DNA from: Synechococcus sp. M44_DOE_062
Lineage (GTDB): Bacteria; Cyanobacteriota; Cyanobacteriia; Thermostichales; Thermostichaceae
Direction: 5' to 3'
DNA length: 61,159 nucleotides
NCBI GenBank assembly: GCA_015295985.1
Contig: DVDX01000021.1
Coordinates: 1-61,159, forward strand
In this document: positions 4,800 through 61,159 of the stretch, in pieces
Layout: each line of letters opens with the position of its first letter
Position numbering within the stretch: position 1 is the stretch's first letter
Position numbers and translations under genes: made by a program
Notes under the pieces: model-generated
The model's input: the letters and a program-made list of their open reading frames with translations, nothing else
Told to the model about the DNA's origin: nothing
Database searches by the model: none

Positions 4800-7274
4800 T
4801 TACTCCGCCCCTTGAGGCAAGAGAACCCGCTCCGGCTCCGTGACCAACACCTTGGGCTTGCGCTCCTCATCCACATCGATAAGCACCTCCGATCCCTCGC
4901 GGACGTGTCCGGCCAGGATCTCTTCCGCCAGGATGTCTTCCAGCAAGCGTTGGATGGCGCGACGCAGCGGGCGTGCCCCATAGCTGGGGTTATACCCCTC
5001 CTCCACCACCAAGTCTTTGAAGCGGTCACTGACCGTAAGGCGGATTTTCTTCTCCGTCATGCGGTCAAACACTTCCTTGAGCAGGATGTCGGCAATCTGC
5101 TTCACTTCGTCCTTGGTCAGTTGGCGGAAGACGATGATCTCGTCCACACGGTTGAGGAACTCCGGACGGAAGTACTGCTTCAGCTCTTCGTTCACCAGGT
5201 TGCGGATGCGGTTGTAGTTGGCATCCTCATCGTTGGTGTTGAACTCGAAGCCGAGGCTGCCGCCACCCTTCTCGATCACCTTCGAGCCGATGTTGGAGGT
5301 CATCACCAACAAGGTGTTCTTGAAGTCCACCGTGCGACCTTTGGCATCGGTCAGGCGGCCATCCTCCAGGATTTGCAACAACAGGTTAAACACATCCGGG
5401 TGGGCTTTCTCAATCTCGTCGAAGAGCACCACCGTATAGGGGCGACGGCGTACTGCCTCGGTGAGTTGACCGCCCTCGTTGTAGCCCACATAGCCCGGCG
5501 GGGAGCCAATCAGCTTGCTGACCGTGTGCCGCTCCATGTACTCCGACATGTCAAGGCGGATCATGGCCGACTCAGAACCGAAGAAGTAAGCTGCCAAAGC
5601 CTTGGTCAGTTCGGTTTTGCCCACCCCCGTCGGGCCGGAGAAGATAAAGCTGGCGATGGGGCGGTTGGGATTTTTCAGCCCCACCCGAGCGCGGCGGATG
5701 GCACGGGAGATGGCCCGCACCGCTTCGTCTTGGCCGATGATGCGCTGGTGCAGGGTTTCTTCCATGTTCAGCAACTTCACCGACTCGCTTTCCGTCAGCT
5801 TGGCCACCGGCACCCCCGTCCAGGCGCTGACCACTTGGGCCACGTCCTCTTCGGTTACTTCGGGCATCTCGCTGCGGCTGCTTTCTTCCGCCTTCTTAGC
5901 AGCGGCAATGGCGCGGATCTGCTGCTTGATCTCCATCTCCCGATCCCGCAGCTCACCGGCTTTGTCGAAGTTCTGGGCCCGCACCGCAGCGTCTTTCTCC
6001 TTGAGCACTCGCCGCAGCTCTTGATCCAGCTCCCGCGCCGCCGGGGGCAGTTGAGAGTTGATCAGGCGCACCCGCGAAGCAGCCTCGTCGATCAAATCGA
6101 TGGCTTTATCCGGCAGGAAGCGGTCGGAGATGTACTGGTCGGCCAGCTTGGCCGCTGCATCCAAGGCAGCATCGGAGATCTTCAGCTTGTGGTGCTGCTC
6201 GTAGCGCTCCCGCAGGCCAAACAGGATCTCGATCGTCTCGGAGACGGTCGGCTCACCCACCATAATGGGCTGGAAGCGACGCTCCAGGGCGGCATCCCGC
6301 TCGATGTGCTTGCGGTACTCATCCAAGGTGGTGGCGCCGATGCATTGCAACTCGCCACGGGCCAAGGCAGGCTTGAGGATGTTGGCGGCATCAATCGCCC
6401 CTTCGGCAGCCCCGGCCCCAATCAGGGTATGCACCTCGTCGATAACCAGGATGATGTTGCCGGCATTGCGGATCTCATCCATGATTTTCTTGAGGCGCTC
6501 TTCAAACTCGCCGCGGTACTTGGTGCCGGCCACCAACAGGCCAATATCCAGGCTGATTACCCGCTTGTCGGCCAAAATATCGGGCACATCCCCCTGCACG
6601 ATGCGCTGAGCCAAACCCTCGGCGATGGCGGTTTTGCCCACCCCCGGCTCGCCAATAAGGACGGGGTTGTTCTTGGTGCGGCGACCCAAGATTTGGATTA
6701 CCCGCTCGATCTCCCGCGTCCGACCGACCACCGGATCCAGCTTGCCCTCCTGGGCCAGTTGGGTGAGGTTGGAGCCGAATTCGTCCAGGGTGGGCGTTTT
6801 GGTGCGGCTGGAGGATCCGCCCCCCGCCGTCACTTCGGCAGTCTCGCCCAACATGCGGATGACCTGGGTGCGCACCTTGGAGAGATCCACTCCCAGGTTT
6901 TCCAAAACGCGGGCCGCTACCCCTTCCCCTTCTCGGATCAGGCCCAGGAGCAGGTGCTCAGTGCCGATGTAGTTGTGGCCGAGCTGGCGGGCCTCTTCTA
7001 GGGAGAGTTCCAGCACTCGCTTGGCGCGGGGAGTGAAAGGGATCTCGACGGCCACAAAACCGGATCCCCGACCGATGATTTTCTCGACCTCAATACGGGC
7101 GTCCTTCAAGTTCACTCCCATGGACTTGAGAACTTTGGCGGCGACCCCAGTGCCCTCGCCGATTAACCCCAACAAAATTTGCTCGGTGCCAACGAAATTG
7201 TGACCTAACCGTCTGGCTTCTTCTTGGGCCAGCATGATCACCTTGATGGCTTTTTCTGTAAAGCGTTCAAACAT
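4800..7274 (-). CDS. clpC: ATP-dependent Clp protease ATPase subunit ClpC
   Basis: AAA+ unfoldase of 824 residues that feeds substrates to the ClpP3/ClpR core. Domain order: a duplicated Clp N-domain (about 1-145), AAA module 1 with Walker [14 protein letters not shown] and Walker B VIDEVH, and a coiled middle region with a UVR-like segment ([19 protein letters not shown]). AAA module 2 follows with [14 protein letters not shown] and [12 protein letters not shown], then the C-terminal D2-small domain ending LPQGAE. The UVR segment and length distinguish ClpC from ClpB and ClpA. A 124-bp gap separates it from clpR downstream. Confidence 0.97.
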
Positions 7275-14561: not shown

Positions 14562-15353
14562 TCAGGGGCAGCGCTTGGGCAGGCGATCCGCAAACCTCTC
14601 TTGGAACTCGCTCACAACATTGCGCAACCGCTCGTCCAAAACGGCCAACGTCTGGGAGGCGATCTCGTCCGGCACACCGCCAAAAAAGGCCTCGGCGATG
14701 CTTCCAGCGATGCAGGCCATGGTGTCTGCGTCTCCACCCAGCGAGATGGCGTTGCGCACCGCGTCTTCAAAACCGTCTGCTTCTAGGAACGCGATGATCG
14801 ACTGGGGCACCGAGCCCTGACAGGAGACATCGAAGCAGTAGTGCTCCCGGATATCGTCCAGCCGCTCGGATAGGCGGTATCCAAACTCTTGCTCGATGTA
14901 CGTCTTGATGTCGGCCTTGGTGTACCCTGACCGGGCCAGAAACACGGCGGCTGCCGTAGCCTGAGCGCCGCGGATGCCCTCTGGGTGGTTATGGGTCACT
15001 TCAGCACTTGCCCGCGCCTGGGCCAGTACTTCTTCCAGCGTGTTGCAGGCGATGCCGATGGGGCTAACCCGCATAGCAGCTCCATTGCCCCAACTGTAGT
15101 ACGGCTTGCGCCAGCGATGCTCGGCCCAGTGGATGAAGCTGCTCCCGTACCCAGCCTCTGGGTAGGCGTGGAAGTACTCATGGTACCAATCGACGTAGCT
15201 ACCGCCCCGCAGCAGCCGCTCGGCCACAGCGACCGTTAAGACAGTGTCATCAGTAAACCGGCTGGCCTCAACGAACAGTGGAAAGTGCTTTGTTTTGGTG
15301 CCAGAGTGCTCATGGACAGAACCGATAACATCCCCGGCAATGGCTCCCAGCAT
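14562..15353 (-). CDS. ADP-ribosylglycohydrolase family protein
   Basis: DraG-like hydrolase of 263 residues that would remove ADP-ribose from proteins, nucleic acids or small molecules. The N-terminal MLGAIAGDVIGSVHE opens the fold. SRFTDDTVLTVAVAERLL supplies the TDDT metal ligands and SLGGDADTMACIAGSIAEAFFG supplies the C-terminal GGDADT ligands, so both dinuclear metal motifs are intact. The ATG at 15353 was chosen because AGGAGAGG lies just upstream. It is 88 bp downstream of the Csx3-AAA gene on the same strand and could be co-transcribed with it, so a role in nucleotide signalling around CRISPR is conceivable but unproven. Confidence 0.85.
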   Translation of the reverse strand: MLGAIAGDVIGSVHEHSGTKTKHFPLFVEASRFTDDTVLTVAVAERLLRGGSYVDWYHEYFHAYPEAGYGSSFIHWAEHRWRKPYYSWGNGAAMRVSPIGIACNTLEEVLAQARASAEVTHNHPEGIRGAQATAAAVFLARSGYTKADIKTYIEQEFGYRLSERLDDIREHYCFDVSCQGSVPQSIIAFLEADGFEDAVRNAISLGGDADTMACIAGSIAEAFFGGVPDEIASQTLAVLDERLRNVVSEFQERFADRLPKRCP

Positions 15354-15441: not shown

Positions 15442-16374
15442 CTAGCCAATTAAGCGGCGCACCGCCCGAAGCAGCTCCGCAGGGAGAGGAGAATTGGGAT
15501 CCCAGTGCAGCTCCAGTTGGCATAGATCCCTGGGCAGTTGCCGGTCTTCCTGGGGATGGCCGGGTGAGGTGTGCAGGATGGCCACACAGCGCAAGTTGCC
15601 CCGGTCTCGGCAAAATTCCTGCCACAAGGGTATGGCCTCGGGATCCCGGCTGACCACCAGGTAGTGGGAGCAGGCTTCCAGGATCGGCTGCTTTTGCGGA
15701 TCCACCTTGCCGCCCACATCCACGATCACCAAGCTCTTTTGCCGACGCAAAGCCAGAATGGCCTGGGCATGGAAGCCAAAAAACTCAGGGGTTGAACGGC
15801 CCCGGTACCGCTGTTTGAGGGCTTCGGCCTGTTCTAGGGGTAAGTCCAGAGTCCAATTGCCTTCCCCATCCCAATGGGCCCGTTGCAGATAAATATCGGG
15901 ATGCTCCGGCAGCAGAGCTTTGAAGAGGGCGCGGGCAAGACGGCTTTTGCCACTGTCGGGGGGCCCCACCACCATCACTGCCGCTGCCAATTCTGTTCGC
16001 GTCAGCGGGCCGTAGGCCTTGCCCGGCCTTTCCTGCACCCAGGGAATGACTTGGCCCACCTGCACTTCCGGGGTATGGCTGGAGACCACCACTGCGCCCA
16101 AGCGTGGGTCGTAGCAGGCCACCCAGCGGGTGAAGTGGCACTCGTGCACCAGCCAGCCGTACAGCCAAATAGGGGCCCGCCCCGTCAGAACCACACCCAG
16201 CCGGGCATCGATCCCTGCAGGCAGCCGCAACTGAGCCAGATCCTCTGGGAAAACCAGGCGATCCGGTCGGGTCAGCTCGATTTCAAGGATTTGAAAAGAC
16301 AGTTCTGCAGAGTGGGGTTTCTGCGGGTCTTCGGCCAGATAGCCGGAAAGCAAATGAAGGGCCACAGCAGCCAT
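15442..16374 (-). CDS. csx3: Csx3 (Crn3)-AAA fusion, type III CRISPR ancillary protein
   Basis: Residues about 27-112 match Csx3, the manganese-dependent cyclic tetra-adenylate ring nuclease family: GVVLTGRAPIWLYGW, then ACYDPRLGAVVVSSH. His77, His80, Asp89, Arg91 and His100 keep the spacing I recall for Archaeoglobus Csx3 (H57, H60, D69, R71, H80). A P-loop domain follows, with Walker A GPPDSGKS at 137-144 and a Walker B-like LVIVDVGG. I recall Csx3-AAA fusions from cyanobacterial type III loci. Likely role: clearing the cyclic oligoadenylate alarm. The ATG at 16374 lacks a clear ribosome binding site; a TTG at 16389 is possible. It diverges from the WYL-like CRISPR gene. Confidence 0.88.
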   Translation of the reverse strand: MAAVALHLLSGYLAEDPQKPHSAELSFQILEIELTRPDRLVFPEDLAQLRLPAGIDARLGVVLTGRAPIWLYGWLVHECHFTRWVACYDPRLGAVVVSSHTPEVQVGQVIPWVQERPGKAYGPLTRTELAAAVMVVGPPDSGKSRLARALFKALLPEHPDIYLQRAHWDGEGNWTLDLPLEQAEALKQRYRGRSTPEFFGFHAQAILALRRQKSLVIVDVGGKVDPQKQPILEACSHYLVVSRDPEAIPLWQEFCRDRGNLRCVAILHTSPGHPQEDRQLPRDLCQLELHWDPNSPLPAELLRAVRRLIG

Positions 16375-16538: not shown

Positions 16539-17936
16539 ATGAGCCGATTTGAGCTGCCTTTGACGGTAGAGGTGTTGCGCTGGCTGGCCGGCGGGCAGTT
16601 GGCGGAGCGCCTGGAGCGGGCTGTGCGCCTGTGGGTGTTGCTCGATTGCTTGTATGGCGAGGAGGGATGGTGGGATCTGCCGGAAACGTTTGGCTATACC
16701 CACATTCGGGATCGCTTGCTCTCACCGCGGCACCCCAAGCAGGATCTGGCAAAAGGGATCCCTTCATTCTGTCCTGATGGTGACTGCATTTGCTGGAAAC
16801 CCTTGAGGTTTTGGCTGAAGGATCCCAGCCTATTGGCCGCCTTAAAAGCAGAAGTTCCCGATCTGGAAGCGCTGCTATCTGCTCGACCCTTTCACAAAAC
16901 CCATCGCACACTGCGCAAAGAGCTGGATTACCTGGCCGCCCAGGGTTGGCTGCAGCAAATTCAGGCCAACTCCAAGCGGAGAGATAATTTTCGCTGCCGT
17001 GCCCGGGGGGATCATCCCCAATTGCCCGCATCTGCACCGACTTTGACCTTATCGGGCAATCAGCTCAAACAGATTTATCACATTCTCAGCGATGTGGCAT
17101 TTGTACATCCAGATGTGCAGGTTTTGCTGGATGAAATCTGGGAAAATCATCAGCACTCGCAGCGGCGGCTGTTTGTGTGGTTTGAGTACATCCTCTCCGA
17201 CGAACAGCAAGAACGGGTGGACGAATATCAAAGCCAGCTAGAAGCCCTTTGGGCCAACCCACAGGCAGGGGTGATTGGTTTTGACTACGCCACCCGCCAA
17301 CATGGGATCCGGCACATTCTCACCTACCCGGTCTGTTTGTTTTATGCTCGCCGCGCCAAGTATTTGGCAGCCTTTGGTCAGCTCCCCACCCCCGAGGGAT
17401 CCCTGGGCTGGCACAACTTTCGGTTGGATCGGATCCAGTCTAAGCGCTTGGCGGTGATTCCTTGGGGCGATCCTTCCATCCCGGCAGAGCTGGCCATCCG
17501 CAAACGGCAGGAGAAGCTGCCCAGCCCAGAGGAAGTCCAGGCGGCATGGGAAGAAGCCTGGGGATCCGATTTTTACCTGCCCAAGGCGTTGTTGATCCTT
17601 CGATTTTCCCCGGAGTTTGCCCGCCGCTATGTGGAAAGCACGGTGCGACATCCCACCTTCCAGCCCATTGCCTACGAACAGATCCCGGCTTTGGTGCGGC
17701 AGGCAGTGGCCGATGCGCGGGAACGCCAACAGATTTTGGACATTCTCCGGCAAAGACCGGCCAGCGACCGCTATTTTCAGGCCTGGGTGCGGGTGGGGGA
17801 TACCAACTTCACCATGCGTTTGCGCGACTGGCGGCCCAACGGCGAGGTGATCGCGCCACTGGCCTACCGGGAACAGATGGCTCGGGAAGCCCAGGCAGAG
17901 CTGCAGTTTTATCGCCCCGACCTGAAGCTTTCTTGA
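16539..17936 (+). CDS. CRISPR-associated WYL-like regulator (TIGR03985 type)
   Basis: A 465-residue protein that I match to the TIGR03985 CRISPR-associated family of cyanobacteria. Residues 1-150 hold helical, winged-helix-like segments (TVEVLRWLAGGQLAERLERAVRLW; THRTLRKELDYLAAQGWLQ). The middle and C-terminal parts resemble a WYL ligand-sensing fold, with YPVCLFYARRAKYLAAFG, NFRLDRIQSKRLAVIPWGDP, and a WCX-like end (DILRQRPASDRYFQAWVRVGDTNFTMRLRDWRPNGEVIAPL). The likely role is transcriptional control of the neighbouring cas operon. cas1 begins 11 bp downstream. The WYL reading comes from pattern, not a search. Confidence 0.75.
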   Translation: MSRFELPLTVEVLRWLAGGQLAERLERAVRLWVLLDCLYGEEGWWDLPETFGYTHIRDRLLSPRHPKQDLAKGIPSFCPDGDCICWKPLRFWLKDPSLLAALKAEVPDLEALLSARPFHKTHRTLRKELDYLAAQGWLQQIQANSKRRDNFRCRARGDHPQLPASAPTLTLSGNQLKQIYHILSDVAFVHPDVQVLLDEIWENHQHSQRRLFVWFEYILSDEQQERVDEYQSQLEALWANPQAGVIGFDYATRQHGIRHILTYPVCLFYARRAKYLAAFGQLPTPEGSLGWHNFRLDRIQSKRLAVIPWGDPSIPAELAIRKRQEKLPSPEEVQAAWEEAWGSDFYLPKALLILRFSPEFARRYVESTVRHPTFQPIAYEQIPALVRQAVADARERQQILDILRQRPASDRYFQAWVRVGDTNFTMRLRDWRPNGEVIAPLAYREQMAREAQAELQFYRPDLKLS

Positions 17937-17947
17937 TCTTCCTGCCT

Positions 17948-18955
17948 ATGACCACCCTCTACCTAACCGAGCCGGGCACGGTGGTTCACTGCCAAAACCA
18001 AACCCTGCTCATTCGCCGCCGTGATCAAGCGCAGCTTTGCCGCCTTGCGGAGGTGGAGCTGGTGGTGTTGCCTGGGATCCAGTTAACCGGCGCAGCTTTG
18101 GCCCAACTGCTGGATCGAGGCATCGAAACCATTTTTTTGCGTGCGGATGGCAGTTTTCGAGGCCGCCTGCAGGGATCCTTCTCCACCAACCCGGAGAGTC
18201 GTCTGGCCCAGTATCAGCGGGCCTACTCTCCCTGGGGGCTGAGGTGGGCCAAGGTGATTGTGCGCGGCAAGATTCGCAACCAACGGGCGATTCTACAACT
18301 GCACAACCGGGCTACCCGCGGCCAGATTGCCCCCTTGCAGGAGGGTATCGACGTTATCGCCGCCTACCTGCAACAGTTGGATCGCTCCACCGCCCCCCCA
18401 GATCGAGAAGCGCTGATGGGCCTAGAGGGCATTTGCGCCCGCATCTACTACCAATCTCTGCAGCATTGCTTTCCGCATGAGTGGAACTTCACTGGCCGCA
18501 ACCGACAGCCGCCACTCGACCCGATCAACGCTCTGCTCAGTTGGGGTTATGGGGTGTTGCTGGCCCGCGTGTTCTCGGCAGTGGTGATGGCCGGGTTGGA
18601 TCCCTACCTCGGCTTTTTCCACGCCAACTTGCCCTATCGCCCCAACCTGGTACTGGACATGATGGAGGAGTTTCGGCCCTTGGTGGTGGATTGGGCCGTG
18701 CTGCAGGTTGTCAAAGCTGGCTTGCTTACGCCGGAAGACTTTGAGCCGTCGCCGGATGGAACAGGCATATGGCTGGGATCCCTGGCCAAAAAGCTGTTTT
18801 TGGGAGAGCTGGAGCGCCGCTTCCGCGAGCCGTTGCTCTATCCTCCTCAATCTCGCCGCCTGCCCCTCAGTCAAATCGTGCTGGAGCAAGCCCGCTGGCT
18901 AAGCCGTTGCCTGGTGAGCGGTGACCTAGACTATGAGCCTATGGAGCTGCGCTGA
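17948..18955 (+). CDS. cas1: CRISPR-associated endonuclease Cas1
   Basis: Integrase subunit that inserts new spacers into the array together with Cas2. The 335-residue protein has the N-terminal beta domain (LYLTEPGTVVHCQNQTLLI, VVLPGIQLTGAALAQLLDRG, FLRADGSFRGRLQG). The helical catalytic domain follows with Glu160 (MGLEGICARIYY), His225 (LGFFHANLPYRPNLVLDMMEEFRP) and Glu240, the expected metal-binding triad. The ATG at 17948 gives the standard N-terminus; the same frame is open further upstream but overlaps the preceding gene. Its stop TGA overlaps the cas2 ATG by one base, indicating translational coupling. Confidence 0.96.
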   Translation: MTTLYLTEPGTVVHCQNQTLLIRRRDQAQLCRLAEVELVVLPGIQLTGAALAQLLDRGIETIFLRADGSFRGRLQGSFSTNPESRLAQYQRAYSPWGLRWAKVIVRGKIRNQRAILQLHNRATRGQIAPLQEGIDVIAAYLQQLDRSTAPPDREALMGLEGICARIYYQSLQHCFPHEWNFTGRNRQPPLDPINALLSWGYGVLLARVFSAVVMAGLDPYLGFFHANLPYRPNLVLDMMEEFRPLVVDWAVLQVVKAGLLTPEDFEPSPDGTGIWLGSLAKKLFLGELERRFREPLLYPPQSRRLPLSQIVLEQARWLSRCLVSGDLDYEPMELR

Positions 18956-19233
18956 TGCTGTGGTTGGTTTGCTACGACGTGGCGGACGATAAGCGGCGGC
19001 AACAGTTGGCCAAGCAGTTGGAACAGTGTTGCCAGCGGGTGCAATACTCCGTGTTCGAATGCCCACTGGACGCTGCGGAGTTGGAAAACAAGCTGGAACA
19101 GTTGTGGTTGCCCTTGCTGAACCTCAAGGAAGACAGTCTGCGGGCCTACCCTTTGGATGCCACGGCCAAGAAGCAGGCCAAAGTCTTCGGGGGGCCTCCC
19201 CCCTATGAGCCGCCGGACTACCTGATTTTCTGA
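18955..19233 (+). CDS. cas2: CRISPR-associated endoribonuclease Cas2
   Basis: A 92-residue ferredoxin-fold protein forming the centre of the Cas1-Cas2 integrase. WLVCYDVADDKRRQQLAKQLEQC contains the conserved first-strand Asp, followed by RVQYSVFECPLDAAELENKL. The C-terminal extension (AKVFGGPPPYEPPDYLIF) is a little longer than the minimal fold. It is the last plus-strand gene before the mini CRISPR array, with 274 bp of probable leader between. Confidence 0.95.
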   Translation: MLWLVCYDVADDKRRQQLAKQLEQCCQRVQYSVFECPLDAAELENKLEQLWLPLLNLKEDSLRAYPLDATAKKQAKVFGGPPPYEPPDYLIF

Positions 19234-19507: not shown

Positions 19508-19687
19508 GTTGATCCCTACCTTTTCCCCGCAGGGGGACGGAAACTTCAGCGCCGCTTCCTCCTTCTTGGCAACGGAATCCGGGTTGTTGATCCCTACCTT
19601 TTCCCCGCAAGGGGACGGAAACTGAAGAGAAGTGAGTAATGAGCAAAGAGAAGTGAGGTTGATCTCTACCTTCTCCCCGCAAGGGGC
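19508..19687 (+). CRISPR. mini CRISPR array: two full 37-nt repeats plus a degenerate third
   Basis: Repeat 1 is at 19508-19544 and repeat 2 at 19586-19622. They start GTTGATCCCTACC and end GGGACGGAAAC, with a one-base difference in the central CCCCGC(A/G)GGGG hairpin region. A third, decayed copy begins at 19658 (GTTGATCTCTACCTTCTCC) and loses its 3' end near 19687. Spacers are 41 nt (19545-19585) and 35 nt (19623-19657); the second is purine-rich and repetitive. The array lies between cas2 and cas6. Its small size and decayed tail suggest little recent acquisition. Confidence 0.93.
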
Positions 19688-19709
19688 TCAACAAAGTAAC
19701 CCAAGCTAT

Positions 19710-20852
19710 CTATGGAAGACTGCTCGATGAGTAGTCCTGGGATCCAGACTGGAGAGAGCGGCGGGCCAGCTTGGCATAGGTCTTCACCGTCTCGTAGGGC
19801 ATCTCCAAATCAGCGGCAATCTGTTGCAAGCTCTCTCCACCTTCGCGGCGGGCCAGGATCGTCGCCCACAGTTGGGCAGTTTTTTCGGCGCGGGATCCCC
19901 CTTGTCGTTGCCGCTGACTGAGAAAGAGGGCGCTCAGCTCCTCGATCCGTTGGGCCACCTGCTCTTCCCGAGAAGGGACGGAGGAGGCGGGTAGCTCTTC
20001 GGCCAACCAACCCAGGCGGGTTTGCCCCAGTCCAAAGGGGGTTTTGTGGCCGGTGCCGCAGTAGGGGGCAAAGTGGATCAGGGCTTGGAGCTGTTGCTGC
20101 CATAGCTCAGGCGCACGGGAGGAGACAGCCAACTGCACACAGCCGATAAACCCCGTTACGGATCCCTGGCGACCTGCGGTGGTTTTGACCGATTCCAGAC
20201 GGTGCCGCTGAATGATGACTTCCCCATCCACCCAATCCAGAAAAGGCTCCACCTCGATGGGCAGGCCGGAAAAATCGTTCCAACGGCGCAGATAGCTGTG
20301 GAACAGGTTGCGAGGGATCGGCAGGGGCAGATGGTGGCCCCGGTGGCGAAAGCTGGTGGGCGAGACGAAGGAAAGGCTCCAGGAGCGGGGGGAAAGGGGC
20401 TGCTGCAACAGTTGACGATAGGTGCGCGGGGGGATCGAGATCTGCCATCCCAGGATCTGCAGCGGGGATCCCCGCAATTCCAGCCAGGTGGGCAGCCGTT
20501 GGCACCACCCTCGCAGCCACTCCACCACCGGCGGGTTGAGGCCGGTGATCCACCAGCGGAAGGGGAGATGAGGCGGGATCAGCGGTCGCCCCCCCTGCTC
20601 GCGGAACGGCCCCATCAGACGGGAGAGGGTAAAGGGTTTTTCGGATTCTCCATCGTGCAAATAGGCGGATAGCTGCGGATCCGTCTCTTGCACCTGGCTC
20701 AAGAACCAGGCGTGCAGCCCTTTGGCATAGTGGGGATCCAGCAGGTAAGACCGGGGAGCCTGAACTTCCAAGGTGATCCCCACCAGTTCGGATCCCGCCG
20801 GCCACTTGCCATTGGCTTCTCTATCAGCAGATGGCTCCGAGAAACTCAGCAT
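19710..20852 (-). CDS. cas6: Cas6-family crRNA endonuclease with C-terminal helix-turn-helix
   Basis: RAMP-fold nuclease that cuts repeat RNA into crRNAs. The N-terminal half carries RSYLLDPHYAKGLHAWFLS and the C-terminal ferredoxin-like half ends in the glycine-rich loop CGTGHKTPFGLGQTRLG (about residues 265-285), the Cas6 hallmark. Beyond it lies a charged linker and an HTH-like tail (GESLQQIAADLEMPYETVKTYAKLARRSL) resembling sigma-70 region 4 or LuxR-type modules, which ordinary Cas6 lacks. The ATG at 20852 was used; a GTG two codons upstream is possible. It is convergent with the mini-array and divergent from the RAMP gene. Confidence 0.88.
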   Translation of the reverse strand: MLSFSEPSADREANGKWPAGSELVGITLEVQAPRSYLLDPHYAKGLHAWFLSQVQETDPQLSAYLHDGESEKPFTLSRLMGPFREQGGRPLIPPHLPFRWWITGLNPPVVEWLRGWCQRLPTWLELRGSPLQILGWQISIPPRTYRQLLQQPLSPRSWSLSFVSPTSFRHRGHHLPLPIPRNLFHSYLRRWNDFSGLPIEVEPFLDWVDGEVIIQRHRLESVKTTAGRQGSVTGFIGCVQLAVSSRAPELWQQQLQALIHFAPYCGTGHKTPFGLGQTRLGWLAEELPASSVPSREEQVAQRIEELSALFLSQRQRQGGSRAEKTAQLWATILARREGGESLQQIAADLEMPYETVKTYAKLARRSLQSGSQDYSSSSLP

Positions 20853-21071
20853 AAGCACAGCCTGTTCCCAGTCGATACCCAGTCCACAACAACAATCAAC
20901 ACAAAACCCAACTTTCCATTGAGAAAATTTTAGAAGGGATCCCTTCCTATTGGGCTTATCCTCGAATCACCGTCTGTGCAGGCCAAAAAAATCTCACAAT
21001 CTGAAGAAAGCCTTGAAATCGTCTGCAACCCATCGCACTCGATCTATACTGCTAGCAAGCTAGAGGACCAT

Positions 21072-22232
21072 GGCCTTTTAAAAGTCTAGGAAATTCCAGG
21101 TGGCAGGGTTAGGATAATTGCAAACTCCGAGGAGAAGAGGTTGGAATGACATTACTTGAAGCGATCAAAGGGATAGAAGACCCGCGCAAGGCACGGGGGA
21201 TACGGCACGACTTAGGGGCATTGATATTGCTTATTATTTCAGGTTTATTGAGTGGGTATAAGGACTTACATGCGATTTCCCGTTGGGGGCGGAGCTTAAG
21301 TGTGACCCAGCGGGAATTGCTTGGGTTTACGAGGGCAACGCCGTGCTGTGCAACGTTATCAAATATCTTGCGCAGCATTGGAACGAACACTTTGCAAAAG
21401 CAGCTGAATGGATGGCTTGCCAGTCTCTGTGCGCCGGGGGAGCATTTGGCATTGGACGGCAAAACGCTGCGGGCAAGCCACGGCAATCCCATCAACGAAC
21501 AAGTGTATTTACTGAGTCTGTTTTGCCAAAAGAGCGGGTTGGTGCTGCACGACACGCCGATGCAACGCGGAGAAAACGAAATATCCTGTGCGTTGCGGCT
21601 GCTTGAATCAGTTGATCTGGCAGGAAAAACGATCACAGGGGATGCCATTTTTGCCAAAAAAAATATGCGGTATCATCGCCGACAAGGGAGGTGATTACCT
21701 GTTCACCGTCAAAGATAACCAACGAAAATTGCGGCGGGACATTGACCGCTGTCTTGCGTTGTTGGCGGGCTCCTCCCGCAGACAGGACCACACCACCGAA
21801 AACAGCGGCCACGGCCGCAGCGAAACACGACACATCGCCTTGATCCCTGCCCCTGAGGCCCTCAAAAAAACATGGCCGGGTCTTCAGGCCGTGGGCACCA
21901 TCACCCGCACCAGACAACAGCACAAAACCGGCAAAACATCGGTGGAAACCGTCTATTTTATCACAAGCCTTGATAAAACAGCCCCAGACATCCTGGCTCT
22001 CAACCGGGCCCATTGGCGCATTGAAAATAACCTGCACCGCCACAAGGATGTCCTCTTTGATGAAGACCGCTCCACCATCAGATGTAACGCCGCTCCCCAT
22101 AACATGGCGGTCTGCAGAGCCTCAGCTCTCGCTTTCCTTAAATCTCTTCGTCAGCCGCTTCCCCATACCACTCAAGATTTTGCAAGAAATCCTGATGCGC
22201 TTTTCCATGTATTGTTAGACTTTTAAAAGGCC
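21072..22232 (+). mobile_element. ISAs1-like insertion sequence, 1161 bp
   Basis: The element is bounded by a perfect 17-bp terminal inverted repeat, GGCCTTTTAAAAGTCTA at 21072-21088 and its reverse complement at 22216-22232. It carries one transposase gene in two frames; the transposase stop codon lies inside the right repeat. The element splits a RAMP-type cas gene: ATG GCC (21070-21075) precedes it and CTG CCC AAA follows at 22233, so removing the insert with one GGCC restores an MALPKPYE start. No longer target duplication is visible beyond GGCC, which is shared by both ends. Confidence 0.88.
21146..22226 (+). pseudogene. ISAs1-family transposase, frameshifted
   Basis: DDE transposase in two overlapping frames. 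The first (21146-21694) has the family start TLLEAIKGIEDPRKARGIRHDL and the first catalytic Asp in HLALDGKTLRAS. The second, open to 22226, continues with ICGIIADKGGDYLFTVKDNQ and carries the conserved VYFITSL, the DILALNRAHWRIENNLH catalytic-Glu region and DEDRSTIR. The switch is at a run of eight A at 21656-21663; a net one-base removal or two-base gain joins the frames. Either the copy is dead or slippage on the A run allows some full-length protein. Confidence 0.85.
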
Positions 22233-23216
22233 CTGCCCAAACCCTACGAGCTGATCCCGTTTCCCACCCAGCGCCCCACGCTGGAGCGGCCCGCCGGCCA
22301 CGCCCGGTTCCATCCCGATAGGTTGCACGGCACCCTCTTCCTCACCCTAACGGTGCAGACTGCTGTCCACGTCTCCACCGGCCACTTGGCCTTGGGCAGC
22401 GATGTGGGGGTGAAAGGGATCCCGGTGCTCAAAACCATGACCACCACCCCCAACGGAAGGCTTAAAATCCAGGGCAGCTCCCTCAAGGGGGCCATCCGGG
22501 CCATGTACGAGGCGATCACCAACAGCACCCTTGCGGTGATAACGAGCCGGTACAAAAATCAGATCCCCCCGGAGCGGCACCCCTGCCGCAACAAGGAGCA
22601 GCTTTGTCCAGCCAGCCGCGTTTTCGGTGCCTTGAACTGGCAGGGATTGGTGGAGTTCAGGGATGCCATTGCCACCCGTGCCGGATCCGGCGGCGGATCC
22701 CTGCCCCCCCTGTACCGTCCCCGCCCGGATCAGTGCAGAGCTTATTTTCAGAAGGAAAATGGCAAAGTCATTGGGCGCAAGTTCTACTACACCCACAGAA
22801 AGGCTTTGCAGGGCAGTTCAAGGGGAACGCCCACCCAGCAAGCGATACAAAACATGGTTTTCAAAACCCGAATCCACTTCAAAAACCTCACCCCCGCCGA
22901 GCTGGGCACCTTGCTCACGGTTTTGGGGCAGGATCCCAAGCATCCCATGCTGCTGAAGGTGGGGGGCGGAAAGCCCGTTGGCCTGGGATCCCTGCAGGTC
23001 ACCCTTGACAAGATCGAGCGGCCCGGCAACCTAAAAGACCGCTACAGTCGCTATGATCTCCCAGAAGCCGATATCCTGGAAGGAGAACGCCTCCAAGCCT
23101 TTGTGCAGGAGCAAATTCAAGCTGCCCAGGGCTACATCTTGCCCGAACAACTCAGACAATTGGCCACTATCTTGAGTCCCACTGCTCTGCGCGAGCCGCC
23201 CCCCGGAGTGTACTGA
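22233..23216 (+). pseudogene. RAMP-superfamily (Cas7-like) cas gene, 5' end displaced by IS
   Basis: Crispr effector backbone-type RAMP protein. Starting right at the IS boundary the frame reads LPKPYELIPFPTQRP, then GTLFLTLTVQTAVHVSTG, KIQGSSLKGAIRAMYEA, CPASRVFGALNWQGLVEFRDA and a glycine-rich GGGKPVGLGSLQVTL loop, matching Csm3/Cmr4/Csx7-like proteins. The original start ATG GCC is preserved at 21070-21075 on the other side of the insertion, preceded by AGAGGA. Translation now would need an internal start such as TTG at 22323, which would lose the first strand region. Exact subfamily is unresolved. In the absence of cas10 nearby the effector complex is incomplete here. Confidence 0.8.
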
Positions 23217-23286: not shown

Positions 23287-23940
23287 ATGACCTTGGCCAA
23301 GAAAGGGGTGGATATTAACGAGCTGAGCAAGTGCATCGCCTATCTGCGCTCGGTTGCCCATCACCCTGATGCGGGATCCCGCTTTTTCCGATTCACCGGC
23401 GAGCTGCCGCGAGAAACGGGTCTATGCCGTACCCAACAAACCAGAGGGTACTATCAGCTCATCGACGAAACCTGCAAAAGGTACCTGCAACCTCTGCAAG
23501 ACAGGCCGGCGGAGATGCTGCAGATCCTGGGCTGGGCAGGCCGGCTGGCCCGCTACTACAAAGATGGGGGGATCCCCATTGGCGAGATTCCACCACCCCA
23601 GGGATCCCGGCCCAACGGCAACTCCGGTCGCCAGGACTCCGTTCCCCAAAGTGCGGAAAGCAAACCCCAGCACGACAAGCAACAGCAAAACCATCAACAC
23701 CAACAAGACCAGGCCCAGCATCAGGCCCGCAAAGCTCGCTTCCAGACCGGGCAAAAACTGAAGGCCACCATCACCAACATCAAGGGCAACGAAGTCACCT
23801 TCCAGATTTTGGGCACGGACACCAAGCTCACCCAGAAGGAGCCCAAACGGGCGGGATCCCTGGCGGTGGGGCAAGAGGTGCAGGTGGAAGTTTTGGATCT
23901 AAGGGAAGATGGCAGAATCCGCAAGGCCAAGCTGCTCTGA
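23287..23940 (+). CDS. CRISPR-island protein: helical N-terminus, Gln/His-rich linker, OB fold
   Basis: I do not recognise this 217-residue protein. Residues 1-95 look helical (INELSKCIAYLRSVAHHP; MLQILGWAGRLARYYKDGGIP), reminiscent in size of type III small subunits but without decisive similarity. Residues about 110-155 form a low-complexity linker rich in Gln, His and Ser. Residues about 157-217 look like an S1/OB nucleic-acid-binding domain (FQTGQKLKATITNIKG, VGQEVQVEVLDLREDGRI). The frame stays open upstream of the ATG at 23287 (SDAVDLSPQSWDLAHGIA), so the true start could be earlier. It lies 70 bp after the RAMP gene and 51 bp before the CARF gene on the same strand. Confidence 0.7.
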   Translation: MTLAKKGVDINELSKCIAYLRSVAHHPDAGSRFFRFTGELPRETGLCRTQQTRGYYQLIDETCKRYLQPLQDRPAEMLQILGWAGRLARYYKDGGIPIGEIPPPQGSRPNGNSGRQDSVPQSAESKPQHDKQQQNHQHQQDQAQHQARKARFQTGQKLKATITNIKGNEVTFQILGTDTKLTQKEPKRAGSLAVGQEVQVEVLDLREDGRIRKAKLL

Positions 23941-23991: not shown

Positions 23992-24888
23992 ATGCAGACC
24001 ATCATCATGACCGTGGGCACTTCCTTGCTCACCAATCCCGACAAGAACCTAGAGCCGCAGCGCCCCTGGATAGGACAAAAAACCATCGGGGATCCCCAGC
24101 GTGCTCTGGCCTGGATGAAAAAAGTAGACCTGGAATTGATCAGCGCCGAAACCAACACCTATTTGCGGCTGGATCCCACCTCGAATGATGCCTTGATTTT
24201 GCTGCACTCAGAAACTCCCGACGGATTAGAGTGTGCTCAGATTTTGAAGCTCTTTTTTGAGCAAGAGCTGGGTCAGCAGCAGGTCTCTTTGGTTCCCCTT
24301 CCCGGCATCAACTACGAGCTAGAGGGATCCTCACTGGAGCGGATGGCCGAGCTGTTGAAACAGTTGGCAGAGAGCGCCAAGGGGATTGTTACTTTTGCCG
24401 CTACCGGCGGGTTCAAAGCCCAAGCCATGATCATGGCCGTGGTGGGCAGCCAATTGGGGATCCCGGTTTGCTACATCCATGAGCAATACAAATCCCTGAT
24501 CTACTTGCCCTACCTACAGCCGCAAGTTCAGCCCCGGATCCCACGGGCAGATCTCCCCGATTCAGGGCGAGATCGCTCCCAAGTCATCCAGGTGCGAAGT
24601 GACACCAGCCATCACCGACCCCGCAGTTGGGCCAAAGTGGAAAGACTCCTGCGAGACACTCCCTGGGTGGATCTGGTTCGATACGATCCCCACGCCTACG
24701 CTGCCCCCAAAAACAGCGTCAAAGCCTCAAACCGCAAAACTGAAGATGGCCGCCACATTCTGTGGATCCACCTCCATGAGAGCCAGGACACCCACCTCGC
24801 CGTCAGGGTAGAGACCACCGGTTATACCCCCGAGCACCTAGAGCTGGCTGCCACCGAATTGCGGCAACGCCTCGGTCGTCTGCTTTGA
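23992..24888 (+). CDS. CARF-domain CRISPR-associated protein (APE2256/TIGR02619-like)
   Basis: A 298-residue protein starting TIIMTVGTSLLTN, the first strand and ligand loop of CARF (CRISPR-associated Rossmann) domains. TFAATGGFKAQAMIMAVVGSQLGIPVCYIHEQYKSLIYLP (about 132-171) is the second ligand-binding loop seen in APE2256/Csx1-like proteins. CARF domains bind cyclic oligoadenylates made by Cas10. The C-terminal 120 residues are not an obvious HEPN domain (no R-x4-6-H pair found), so the protein may be a ring nuclease of the Sso1393 sort, a regulator, or an effector with an unrecognised domain. Confidence 0.82.
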   Translation: MQTIIMTVGTSLLTNPDKNLEPQRPWIGQKTIGDPQRALAWMKKVDLELISAETNTYLRLDPTSNDALILLHSETPDGLECAQILKLFFEQELGQQQVSLVPLPGINYELEGSSLERMAELLKQLAESAKGIVTFAATGGFKAQAMIMAVVGSQLGIPVCYIHEQYKSLIYLPYLQPQVQPRIPRADLPDSGRDRSQVIQVRSDTSHHRPRSWAKVERLLRDTPWVDLVRYDPHAYAAPKNSVKASNRKTEDGRHILWIHLHESQDTHLAVRVETTGYTPEHLELAATELRQRLGRLL

Positions 24889-24924
24889 GTTTCCATTAAT
24901 TCCACTTCCCCGAAGGGAAGCGAC
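24889..24924 (-). repeat. solitary CRISPR-like repeat, left copy
   Basis: A 36-nt unit beginning GTTTCCATTAATTCC and ending GGGAAGCGAC, with a CTTCCCCGAAGGGAAG hairpin. It starts at the last base of the CARF stop region. In minus orientation it ends in GGAAAC like the array at 60.6 kb, but its sequence differs from both other repeat types. A matching copy lies 525 bp to the right. Confidence 0.75.
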
Positions 24925-24998
24925 TTATCAGGTACAAGGTTTTTGCCACACAAGCCAGTATATAGCCTATTAAGGACAACGTGGAAAATCGAGGTAAC

Positions 24999-25121
24999 AT
25001 GACAGAACATGAACACCTGAGCACACCAATCAAAATCCTCTTAATTGGAGCGGAGATTCTCTTTGTCGGTATCCTATTCCTCATGCGTTTTGCAATCGCC
25101 GGTTGGCTTATAATCTTATAA
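24999..25121 (+). CDS. small membrane protein, 40 residues
   Basis: ATG at 24999 is preceded by GAGGTAAC, a reasonable ribosome binding site. The product starts MTEHEHLSTPIK and then has one hydrophobic span (ILLIGAEILFVGILFLMRFAIAGWLIIL) to the stop at 25119-25121. It overlaps the start of the next reading frame, suggesting coupling. It sits between two solitary CRISPR-like repeats in AT-richer DNA than its surroundings. No family recognised. Confidence 0.45.
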   Translation: MTEHEHLSTPIKILLIGAEILFVGILFLMRFAIAGWLIIL

Positions 25122-25447
25122 TCATTTTTATTTTTCCAATGCTGCTTATTCTATGGGCGCTCGTGCATCTGGGTTTGATGACCGCGTTCATTAGTGTTCT
25201 CAAATCAAGCAAGATAGATACTGCGCTCTACATTGCCGTCCACTTTTTTTATCTGGGGGCTTGGTTATTCCAACTCGATGCTGACGATACCCGTGTGAAG
25301 TGGGTTATTCGTCTCCTCCCATACACTGACTTTCTGGATCCCTTCCTCAAGGAATGGGGTGGAGTTCCATTTCTCATTATGAGTGCTGCTACATTTGTTT
25401 GCTATTTGATAATCTTCATTTTAATAGTTGTTCGGTTGTTCTTCTGA
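25103..25447 (+). CDS. predicted integral membrane protein, 114 residues
   Basis: TTG at 25103 opens a frame that overlaps the preceding small gene; an ATG at 25139 is the alternative start. Three hydrophobic segments are visible (IIIFIFPMLLILWALVHLGLM; IDTALYIAVHFFYLGAWLF; FLIMSAATFVCYLIIFILIVV) with a soluble DADDTRVKWVIR loop. The frame stops 3 bp before the right-hand solitary CRISPR-like repeat. The codon and base composition is more AT-rich than neighbouring genes, consistent with transfer. I do not recognise the family; the two-gene pair could be a small toxin, immunity or phage-derived module. Confidence 0.45.
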   Translation: MAYNLIIIFIFPMLLILWALVHLGLMTAFISVLKSSKIDTALYIAVHFFYLGAWLFQLDADDTRVKWVIRLLPYTDFLDPFLKEWGGVPFLIMSAATFVCYLIIFILIVVRLFF

Positions 25448-25449
25448 CT

Positions 25450-25485
25450 TTTTCCATTAATTCCACTTCCCCAAAGAGAAGCGAC
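25450..25485 (-). repeat. solitary CRISPR-like repeat, right copy
   Basis: Matches the unit at 24889-24924 at 33 of 36 positions, with changes at positions 1, 24 and 28. The last two weaken the central hairpin (CCCCAAAGAGAAG). The two copies bracket 525 bp holding the two small membrane-protein frames. Confidence 0.72.
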
Positions 25486-25676
25486 TTCCCCCACTTGTAA
25501 CCCTTGCCCAGAGCGGGATCGACCGGGTGAACGGAAGAATCAGGGTTTGAGGCTTGTCGCCGACCCTGTCGCTGACCATGTTGGTGTAGAAATTAACATG
25601 GAGCCCTGTGTTGAGGTTACCAGGGAGCTGTTTCTGAGAAGCTGAAGCAGGGGGCCAATGGAGTGAAAGTGAGAGG

Positions 25677-60566: not shown

Positions 60567-61159
60567 GTTTCCAATTTCTAGGGATCCCCCCGAAGGGGGA
60601 ACACTACCGCTATTTGGCTCCGCAACATCCACCCACCGGATGTTTCCAATTTCTAGGGATCCCCCCGAAGGGGGAACCCGAATTCAGGGAGGCGAACCTC
60701 GTTGACACCGAGGTCGTTTCCAATTTCTAGGGATCCCCCCGAAGGGGGAACTGTAGGGTCCTCTCGCCTCGGAAAATCACCCTTTCCGGTTTCCAATTTC
60801 TAGGGATCCCCCCGAAGGGGGAACAGGTGGGTACCGGTAGTCCGGACATTGGCTGAGCAGCCCGCCGGTTTCCAATTTCTAGGGATCCCCCCGAAGGGGG
60901 AACACCAATTGGTCTGGTCGCCCCGCCCGATTGGGAGGTTGTTTCCAATTTCTAGGGATCCCCCCGAAGGGGGAACTGGAAAGCCAGTTTTTGGATCGGT
61001 CCGACCCTCTGCAGTTTCCAATTTCTAGGGATCCCCCCGAAGGGGGAACCGTTTACACCCCGCAATACCGCGCGCGCCTTCTCCAGGAGTTTCCAATTTC
61101 TAGGGATCCCCCCGAAGGGGGAACAGCACTGTTTGATACCGCCGTCCAATTTGGGACCC
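60567..61159 (-). CRISPR. CRISPR array, at least eight identical 36-nt repeats, continues past the window
   Basis: Repeats start at 60567, 60642, 60716, 60789, 60868, 60941, 61014 and 61089. All read GTTTCCAATTTCTAGGGATC then a C run, GAAGGGGGAAC. Spacers are 39, 38, 37, 43, 37, 37 and 39 nt, with a partial one after the last. Read on the minus strand the repeat ends GGAAAC, so transcription is probably leftward and the leader lies beyond the right edge; the left end is then the old, trailer end. The repeat contains the genome-wide palindrome GGGATCCC and an imperfect GGGGG/CCCCCC hairpin. No cas genes adjoin it here. Confidence 0.97.

Follow-up and report, generated by a model that had tools for sequence, protein, structure and literature searches.

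The window, that is, the whole analysed stretch of 61,159 nucleotides from Synechococcus sp. M44_DOE_062, encodes a protein in which a Csx3/Crn3 domain is joined to a P-loop NTPase domain. The protein is an ordinary member of an architecture that has already been named, as Csx3-AAA in PADLOC and as Csx3' in eLife 2020. Our reading of it, tentative and somewhat short of an even call, is a Crn3/Csx3-type cA4 off-switch whose own SIMIBI NTPase domain would control Csx3 assembly or product release.

The protein was assigned to the named kind because it matched the PADLOC Csx3-AAA model (PDLC01045) over the full length (E 3.6e-108, protein residues 1-309 against model positions 1-284 of 286). Its two domains and their order are those of Csx3-AAA, Csx3', and slr7080 of Synechocystis, the cyanobacterial type III setting is shared as well, and there is no essential difference in the protein itself; the difference lies in the label, as both structure models and the Walker B motif led us to read the second domain as SIMIBI and not AAA. 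Such fusions had been placed in cyanobacterial type III loci by a sequence-only reading of this DNA, and they are indeed described in PMC7371418 (Fig 1 legend), in PMC12409355, and, as slr7080, in PMC9676260, besides the PADLOC entry. The literature gives the function of the second domain of Csx3' as unknown, and the literature examined yielded no biochemical evidence on a Csx3-NTPase. PADLOC C3a67 (AAA-Csx3) also joins a P-loop part, which matches residues 131-269 of the window protein, to Csx3, but in the reverse order; no full-length match to C3a67 was found in 386 cyanobacterial genomes.

The two domains of the fusion protein

The gene lies on the minus strand, which the sequence-only reading had not given (Table 1). 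Csx3 profiles matched the protein far beyond chance (PF09620, 8.9e-35; TIGR02579, 1.3e-41), and AF1864 structures matched the N-terminal domain with an E-value of 1.7e-18. The alignment to AF1864 was gapless between the five functional residues, so that H77, H80, D89, R91, and H100 correspond to H57, H60, D69, R71, and H80 of Archaeoglobus fulgidus Csx3, whose roles were taken from PMC7371418; the claimed fusion of a residue-retaining Csx3 with a Walker A domain, and the claimed Archaeoglobus-like spacing, were thereby borne out. An AlphaFold2 model of the full-length protein, built with 54 relatives as the alignment (pLDDT 87, pTM 0.82), showed the Csx3 fold in its N-terminal part (Z 15.0, 1.7 A over 98 residues to 6vjg) with the P-loop domain beside it, and the absence of a Csx3 fold, which would have counted against the sequence-only reading, was not observed. 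The A. fulgidus protein (Crn3, AF1864) shares the fold and all five residues, but it has 110 aa and lacks the NTPase domain, and its ring-nuclease activity has been demonstrated, whereas the window protein is known from sequence. By family knowledge, the window protein probably cleaves cA4 in a Mn-dependent manner.

Table 1. Features of the csx3'-NTPase gene and its surroundings in the window
Feature	Position	Strand	Evidence or remark
ADP-ribosylglycohydrolase	14562..15353	minus	likely ATG 15353, longest frame to 15449; PF03747 2.1e-35
csx3'-NTPase gene	15442..16374	minus	ATG 16374, stop 15442, 310 aa, no internal stop
SIMIBI-like P-loop NTPase domain, residues 128-310	15445..15993	minus	two models, fold matches, motifs
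Walker B / switch II LVIVDVGG, residues 215-222	15709..15732	minus	D219 at 1.00 of 115 domains
Conserved DGEG motif, residues 169-172	15859..15870	minus	D169, G170 at 1.00 of 115 domains
Walker A GPPDSGKS, residues 137-144	15943..15966	minus	G137, G142, K143 at 1.00 of 115 domains
Csx3/Crn3 domain, residues 1-117	16024..16374	minus	PF09620 8.9e-35; Z 15.0 to 6vjg
H100 (Af H80)	16075..16077	minus	AF1864 alignment; residue census
D89-P-R91 (Af D69/R71, cA4 face)	16102..16110	minus	AF1864 alignment; residue census
H77-x-x-H80 (Af H57/H60, presumed Mn site)	16135..16146	minus	AF1864 alignment; residue census
TIGR03985 HTH-WYL CRISPR-associated regulator	16539..17936	plus	divergent to csx3'; TIGR03985 3.6e-105; WYL PDLC01046 1.2e-180
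cas1	17948..18955	plus	TIGR00287 2.2e-78
cas2	18955..19233	plus	TIGR01573 6.6e-22
CRISPR remnant, three repeats	19508..19695	plus	repeat reading
cas6	19710..20858	minus	TIGR01877 3.6e-27
Transposase-like ORFs over two frames, interrupting former type III module	21146..22226	plus	ORF reading only
TIGR03986 / III-D Cas7-like RAMP, C-terminal remnant	22323..23216	plus	best stretch covers only 324-529 of 568; PADLOC
Csx21	23287..23940	plus	PDLC01516 1.4e-64
CARF / CARF-RelE protein (TIGR02619, SyCsm6-like)	23992..24888	plus	TIGR02619 9.5e-55; CARF_RelE 2.7e-60

K143 is the Walker A lysine of the second domain, and it was invariant across 115 domains together with G137, G142, D169, G170, D219, and W251. 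Residues 129-310 matched the folds of MinD (Z 13.8, 165 residues), TM0796/DUF1611, CTP synthase, ParF, the GPN GTPase PAB0955, and dethiobiotin synthetase, and modelling of the split-form relative L119 from a different alignment (pLDDT 90) gave the same picture (MinD, Z 13.9); over the two models, the SIMIBI matches had Z values of 12-14 over 150-180 residues. The Walker B motif has the form hhhD-x-GG (DVGG, a DxxG-like switch II) and lacks an ASCE-type acidic residue after the aspartate: the motif was located in 108 domains, and there this position was V in 89, I in 11, L in three, F in three, and T in two, and was acidic in none. The AAA+ label was rejected, since the Walker B motif does not fit (no hhhhDE). 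Among the 50 fold matches listed, a set too limited to prove absence, no AAA+ structure occurred, and the P-loop entries were SIMIBI-class or related. Pfam AAA_16 matched weakly in 17 of 54 members, with the window protein below the curated cut-off, and the other Pfam P-loop matches of the window protein were likewise sub-threshold only. The 'ATPase' part of the sequence-only reading thus stands as a P-loop domain, for which SIMIBI-class is a better description than AAA. On the models and motifs, we read it as a SIMIBI-class NTPase forming a family of its own: the fold is shared with MinD/ParA and with dethiobiotin synthetase/CTP synthase (Z about 12-14), but identity to these is about 8-19%, the MinD/ParA signature lysine (deviant Walker A, GKGGxGKS/T) was found in none of 114 P-loops, and the domain has motifs of its own (DGEG; DVGG; H237 and W251) and no defined substrate or partner surface.

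The fold alone does not separate a switch from a phosphotransferase. Several of dethiobiotin synthetase, CTP synthase, and TM0796 transfer phosphate, and the C-terminal domain could be a small-molecule phosphotransferase of this kind, phosphorylating or adenylating a nucleotide such as linear A2-P, the product of the Csx3 domain, so that a signal with some remaining activity would be removed or recycled. The shared fold, the missing signature lysine of the switch ATPases, the invariant D169-G170 of DGEG, and the name 'kinase/transferase' given to the domain by the eLife authors (PMC7371418) are consistent with such an enzyme. However, the domain shows no recognisable substrate-binding motif of known kinases and its Pfam P-loop matches stayed below threshold, and an enzyme acting on free product would not need the strict linkage to Csx3 described below; we consider this alternative unlikely.

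Type III context and neighbouring genes

The local type III module of the window is broken. It lacks cas10, and what remains of its RAMP gene stands beside transposase-like ORFs (Table 1), as would be expected if the csx3' gene were a leftover of a dead locus with no current role in this genome. We regard such a relic as highly improbable, because all the residues are intact, both domains are under purifying selection by comparison with a congener (protein kept there at 88% identity; dN/dS of 0.13 for the Csx3 domain, 0.17 for the P-loop domain, and 0.29 for the two terminal tails), and the same genome carries on contig C83 a III-B module with an intact-looking Cas10b (GGDD), Cmr4, Cmr5, Cmr6, and Csx1. 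As a Cas10b with GGDD is encoded there, the C83 module could be the source of cA4 for the csx3'-NTPase, which is present as a single copy in this genome. The corresponding locus of the congener has a 774-aa Cas10 with GGDD near csx3'. Among single-fusion loci, cas10 was found within the examined flanks in 49 of 53, and 45 of these encode GGDD; related loci therefore link csx3'-NTPase to a cOA-producing type III system. Two further repeat features were seen in the window: a pair of 37-base repeats, 561 bases apart and resembling CRISPR-repeat remnants, around a small ORF at 25103-25447 (24890-25487), and a CRISPR array at 60567-61151 with at least eight repeats (GTTTCCAATTTCTAGGGATCCCCCCGAAGGGGGAAC), which reaches the contig end and whose repeat differs from that of the array at 19508.

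The constant neighbour of csx3' is the divergent TIGR03985 WYL gene. In loci of at least 9 kb, it accompanied 49 of 53 single fusions, 16 of 21 split pairs, and 15 of 19 divergent-type pairs (the pair types are given below), usually upstream of csx3, in the opposite direction and within a few hundred bases, as in the window. Transcription of the csx3' locus may be controlled by the WYL protein. The same adjacency in all three groups suits another proposal, in which the fusion protein would signal the cA4 status to the regulator and thus allow a transcriptional reset of the CRISPR module once cA4 is gone. We consider this very unlikely, since plain transcriptional control would equally give a divergent adjacent regulator, and we know of no ligands for WYL proteins of the TIGR03985 family.

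The ADP-ribosylglycohydrolase gene does adjoin csx3', as the sequence-only reading had stated, but the functional pairing suggested there was rejected: among the loci compared, the gene stood beside csx3 only in two genomes of this genus (L001 and L002), and it is probably outside the system. A gene related to RelA/SpoT hydrolases (HD) adjoins the WYL gene in about 16 split and divergent-type loci (e.g., L133:5674-6306, L132:201-779, and L055:4390-5010) and in only two single-fusion loci (L060 and L114). On a plasmid of Allocoleopsis PCC 7113 (L181:5217-9968), cas10 is separated from the WYL/csx3 pair by TnsA-like, ATP-binding, and TniQ genes.

Active and degenerate Csx3 copies in cyanobacteria

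The protein search of the 386 cyanobacterial genomes gave matches in 51. Besides 71 distinct single fusions (the window protein included), mostly with active residues, we found 23 fused proteins in split pairs (a free Csx3 with a Csx3-NTPase), 16 in divergent pairs (a Csx3-like protein of about 101 aa with a Csx3-like-NTPase), five tandem Csx3-Csx3-NTPase proteins, and two loci with separate Csx3 and NTPase genes (L035 and L050). A search with the P-loop family found it in 46 of the 386 genomes; in all of these but one (G300, with a broken 135-aa frame), Csx3 is encoded by the same or an adjacent gene. These association counts are uncorrected for phylogeny. Csx3 was found without such an NTPase in five sampled genomes (G062, G352, G039, G099, and G203). 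As the NTPase occurs almost exclusively beside Csx3 and Csx3 also occurs alone, the NTPase depends on Csx3 and not the reverse. Independent events are few, because the split form is essentially one clade in the P-loop tree.

Of the 71 single fusions, 59 had both catalytic faces intact, as had 22 of 24 free partners (one of the 24, in L104, being a divergent-type protein) and none of the 23 NTPase-borne partners; given the clade structure of the split form, these counts are not independent. In the NTPase-borne copies, the histidine face was broken in all 23, the D/R pair in 13, and R66 was lost in 19. The two genes of a split pair are mostly separated by -4 to +51 bp; such pairs may have been described before. 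Among the single fusions, 12 of 71 departed from the five-residue set in at least one position, one of the 12 being an incomplete row. Two ideas found no support: that degraded single fusions are always backed by another Csx3 in the genome (at least one such genome, L071 in G386, has no other), and that the dead platform retains one complete half-site, as no more than 10 of the 23 copies have kept the D/R pair. A tandem protein (L024:982-2358) has lost the histidine face in both copies in a genome with no other Csx3 match, and it is possibly a non-catalytic family member, judging from these residues. In Allocoleopsis PCC 7113, both members of the split pair are publicly annotated as the ring nuclease Crn3/Csx3, including the NTPase-borne one without catalytic residues (L181:12358-13260). 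Because dead copies carry this label, counts of ring nucleases by domain match alone are overestimates.

One protein (L114, from cyanobacterium CCP2) carries the two types in a new combination: its P-loop domain belongs to the split clade (97/84 node), and its Csx3 domain has all five residues, is of the free-partner type (EGK), and groups with the free active Csx3s (96/87 node). These placements indicate that an active Csx3 replaced the dead copy on the same NTPase, which is a second origin of the active fusion. Since an active Csx3 was re-fused onto a split-clade NTPase, physical cooperation of Csx3 and NTPase is argued for.

The degenerate residues of some members (L024 and L111) would also suit a sensor, and effectors that are activated by filaments and contain a built-in ring nuclease are known (discussion of the Csx15 paper, PMC13148439). 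By this precedent, cA4 binding by Csx3 filaments would activate the NTPase as an effector, through NTP depletion or signalling, with cA4 cleavage as a built-in timer. We consider it quite unlikely, because the split loci retain a separate Csx3, intact in nearly all, because the dead platform, without R66 in 19 and without the D/R pair in 13 of 23, is no obvious cA4 receptor, and because CARF proteins are already present in many loci.

We favour, tentatively as stated, the off-switch with NTPase-controlled assembly or release; powering of ring-nuclease assembly was, like the effector role, among the possibilities named in the sequence-only reading. Many SIMIBI proteins switch by dimerising. The active site of Archaeoglobus Csx3 does not exist until two dimers have stacked head to tail around cA4, and complex formation or product release is the step that limits its turnover (PMC7371418). 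In the proposed sequence of events, the Csx3 domain would linearise cA4 made by the type III Cas10, whereupon cA4-dependent effectors would stop; the C-terminal domain, by binding and hydrolysing NTP, would drive or undo Csx3 stacking and so set the rate of cA4 removal; and relatives would split the job between an active Csx3 subunit and an NTPase that uses a dead Csx3 copy as a docking platform. We infer NTP-coupled assembly or release: a change of association with nucleotide state would bear on the limiting step itself, and would account both for the strict dependence of the NTPase on Csx3 and for its acceptance of a dead copy as a docking platform. The coupling is not essential to ring-nuclease chemistry, since several Csx3s work without the NTPase, and an ATP-sandwich dimer may not apply, since the P-loop lacks the MinD/ParA signature lysine. 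The residue differences in 12 of 71 single fusions, the tandem protein L024 with no intact Csx3, the small number of independent events, and the lack of cas10 in the local module also speak against the favoured reading. The bolder proposal, that this is a new kind of NTP-driven cA4 off-switch in which a SIMIBI NTPase on a Csx3 or pseudo-Csx3 platform builds or breaks Csx3-cA4 stacks, with catalysis and platform separable and fused more than once, seems to us somewhat unlikely; if it is true, the decay of the alarm in cyanobacterial type III systems would be set by the nucleotide state. Owing to the split pairs, the dead platform, and the L114 re-fusion, the role of the NTPase can be approached directly with two subunits.

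Viral Csx3 and a possible relative

A phage origin of the fusion was rejected, as 50,697 phage records contained no match and viral contigs yielded stand-alone Csx3 only. Six IMG/VR viral contigs (L140-L145) encode such stand-alone proteins, with matches at about 5001-5260, and no NTPase domain was found beside them. The five functional Csx3 residues align in five of the six contigs, and L144 has four of five (gap at the H80 position); judged by these residues, the proteins are candidate viral ring nucleases. Positions 53-111 of the family profile (alignment A2) gave a weak match (E 7e-4) to the CRISPR-associated TIR filament protein Cat1, at its residues 201-259, and Csx3 is possibly related to the Cat1 sensor.
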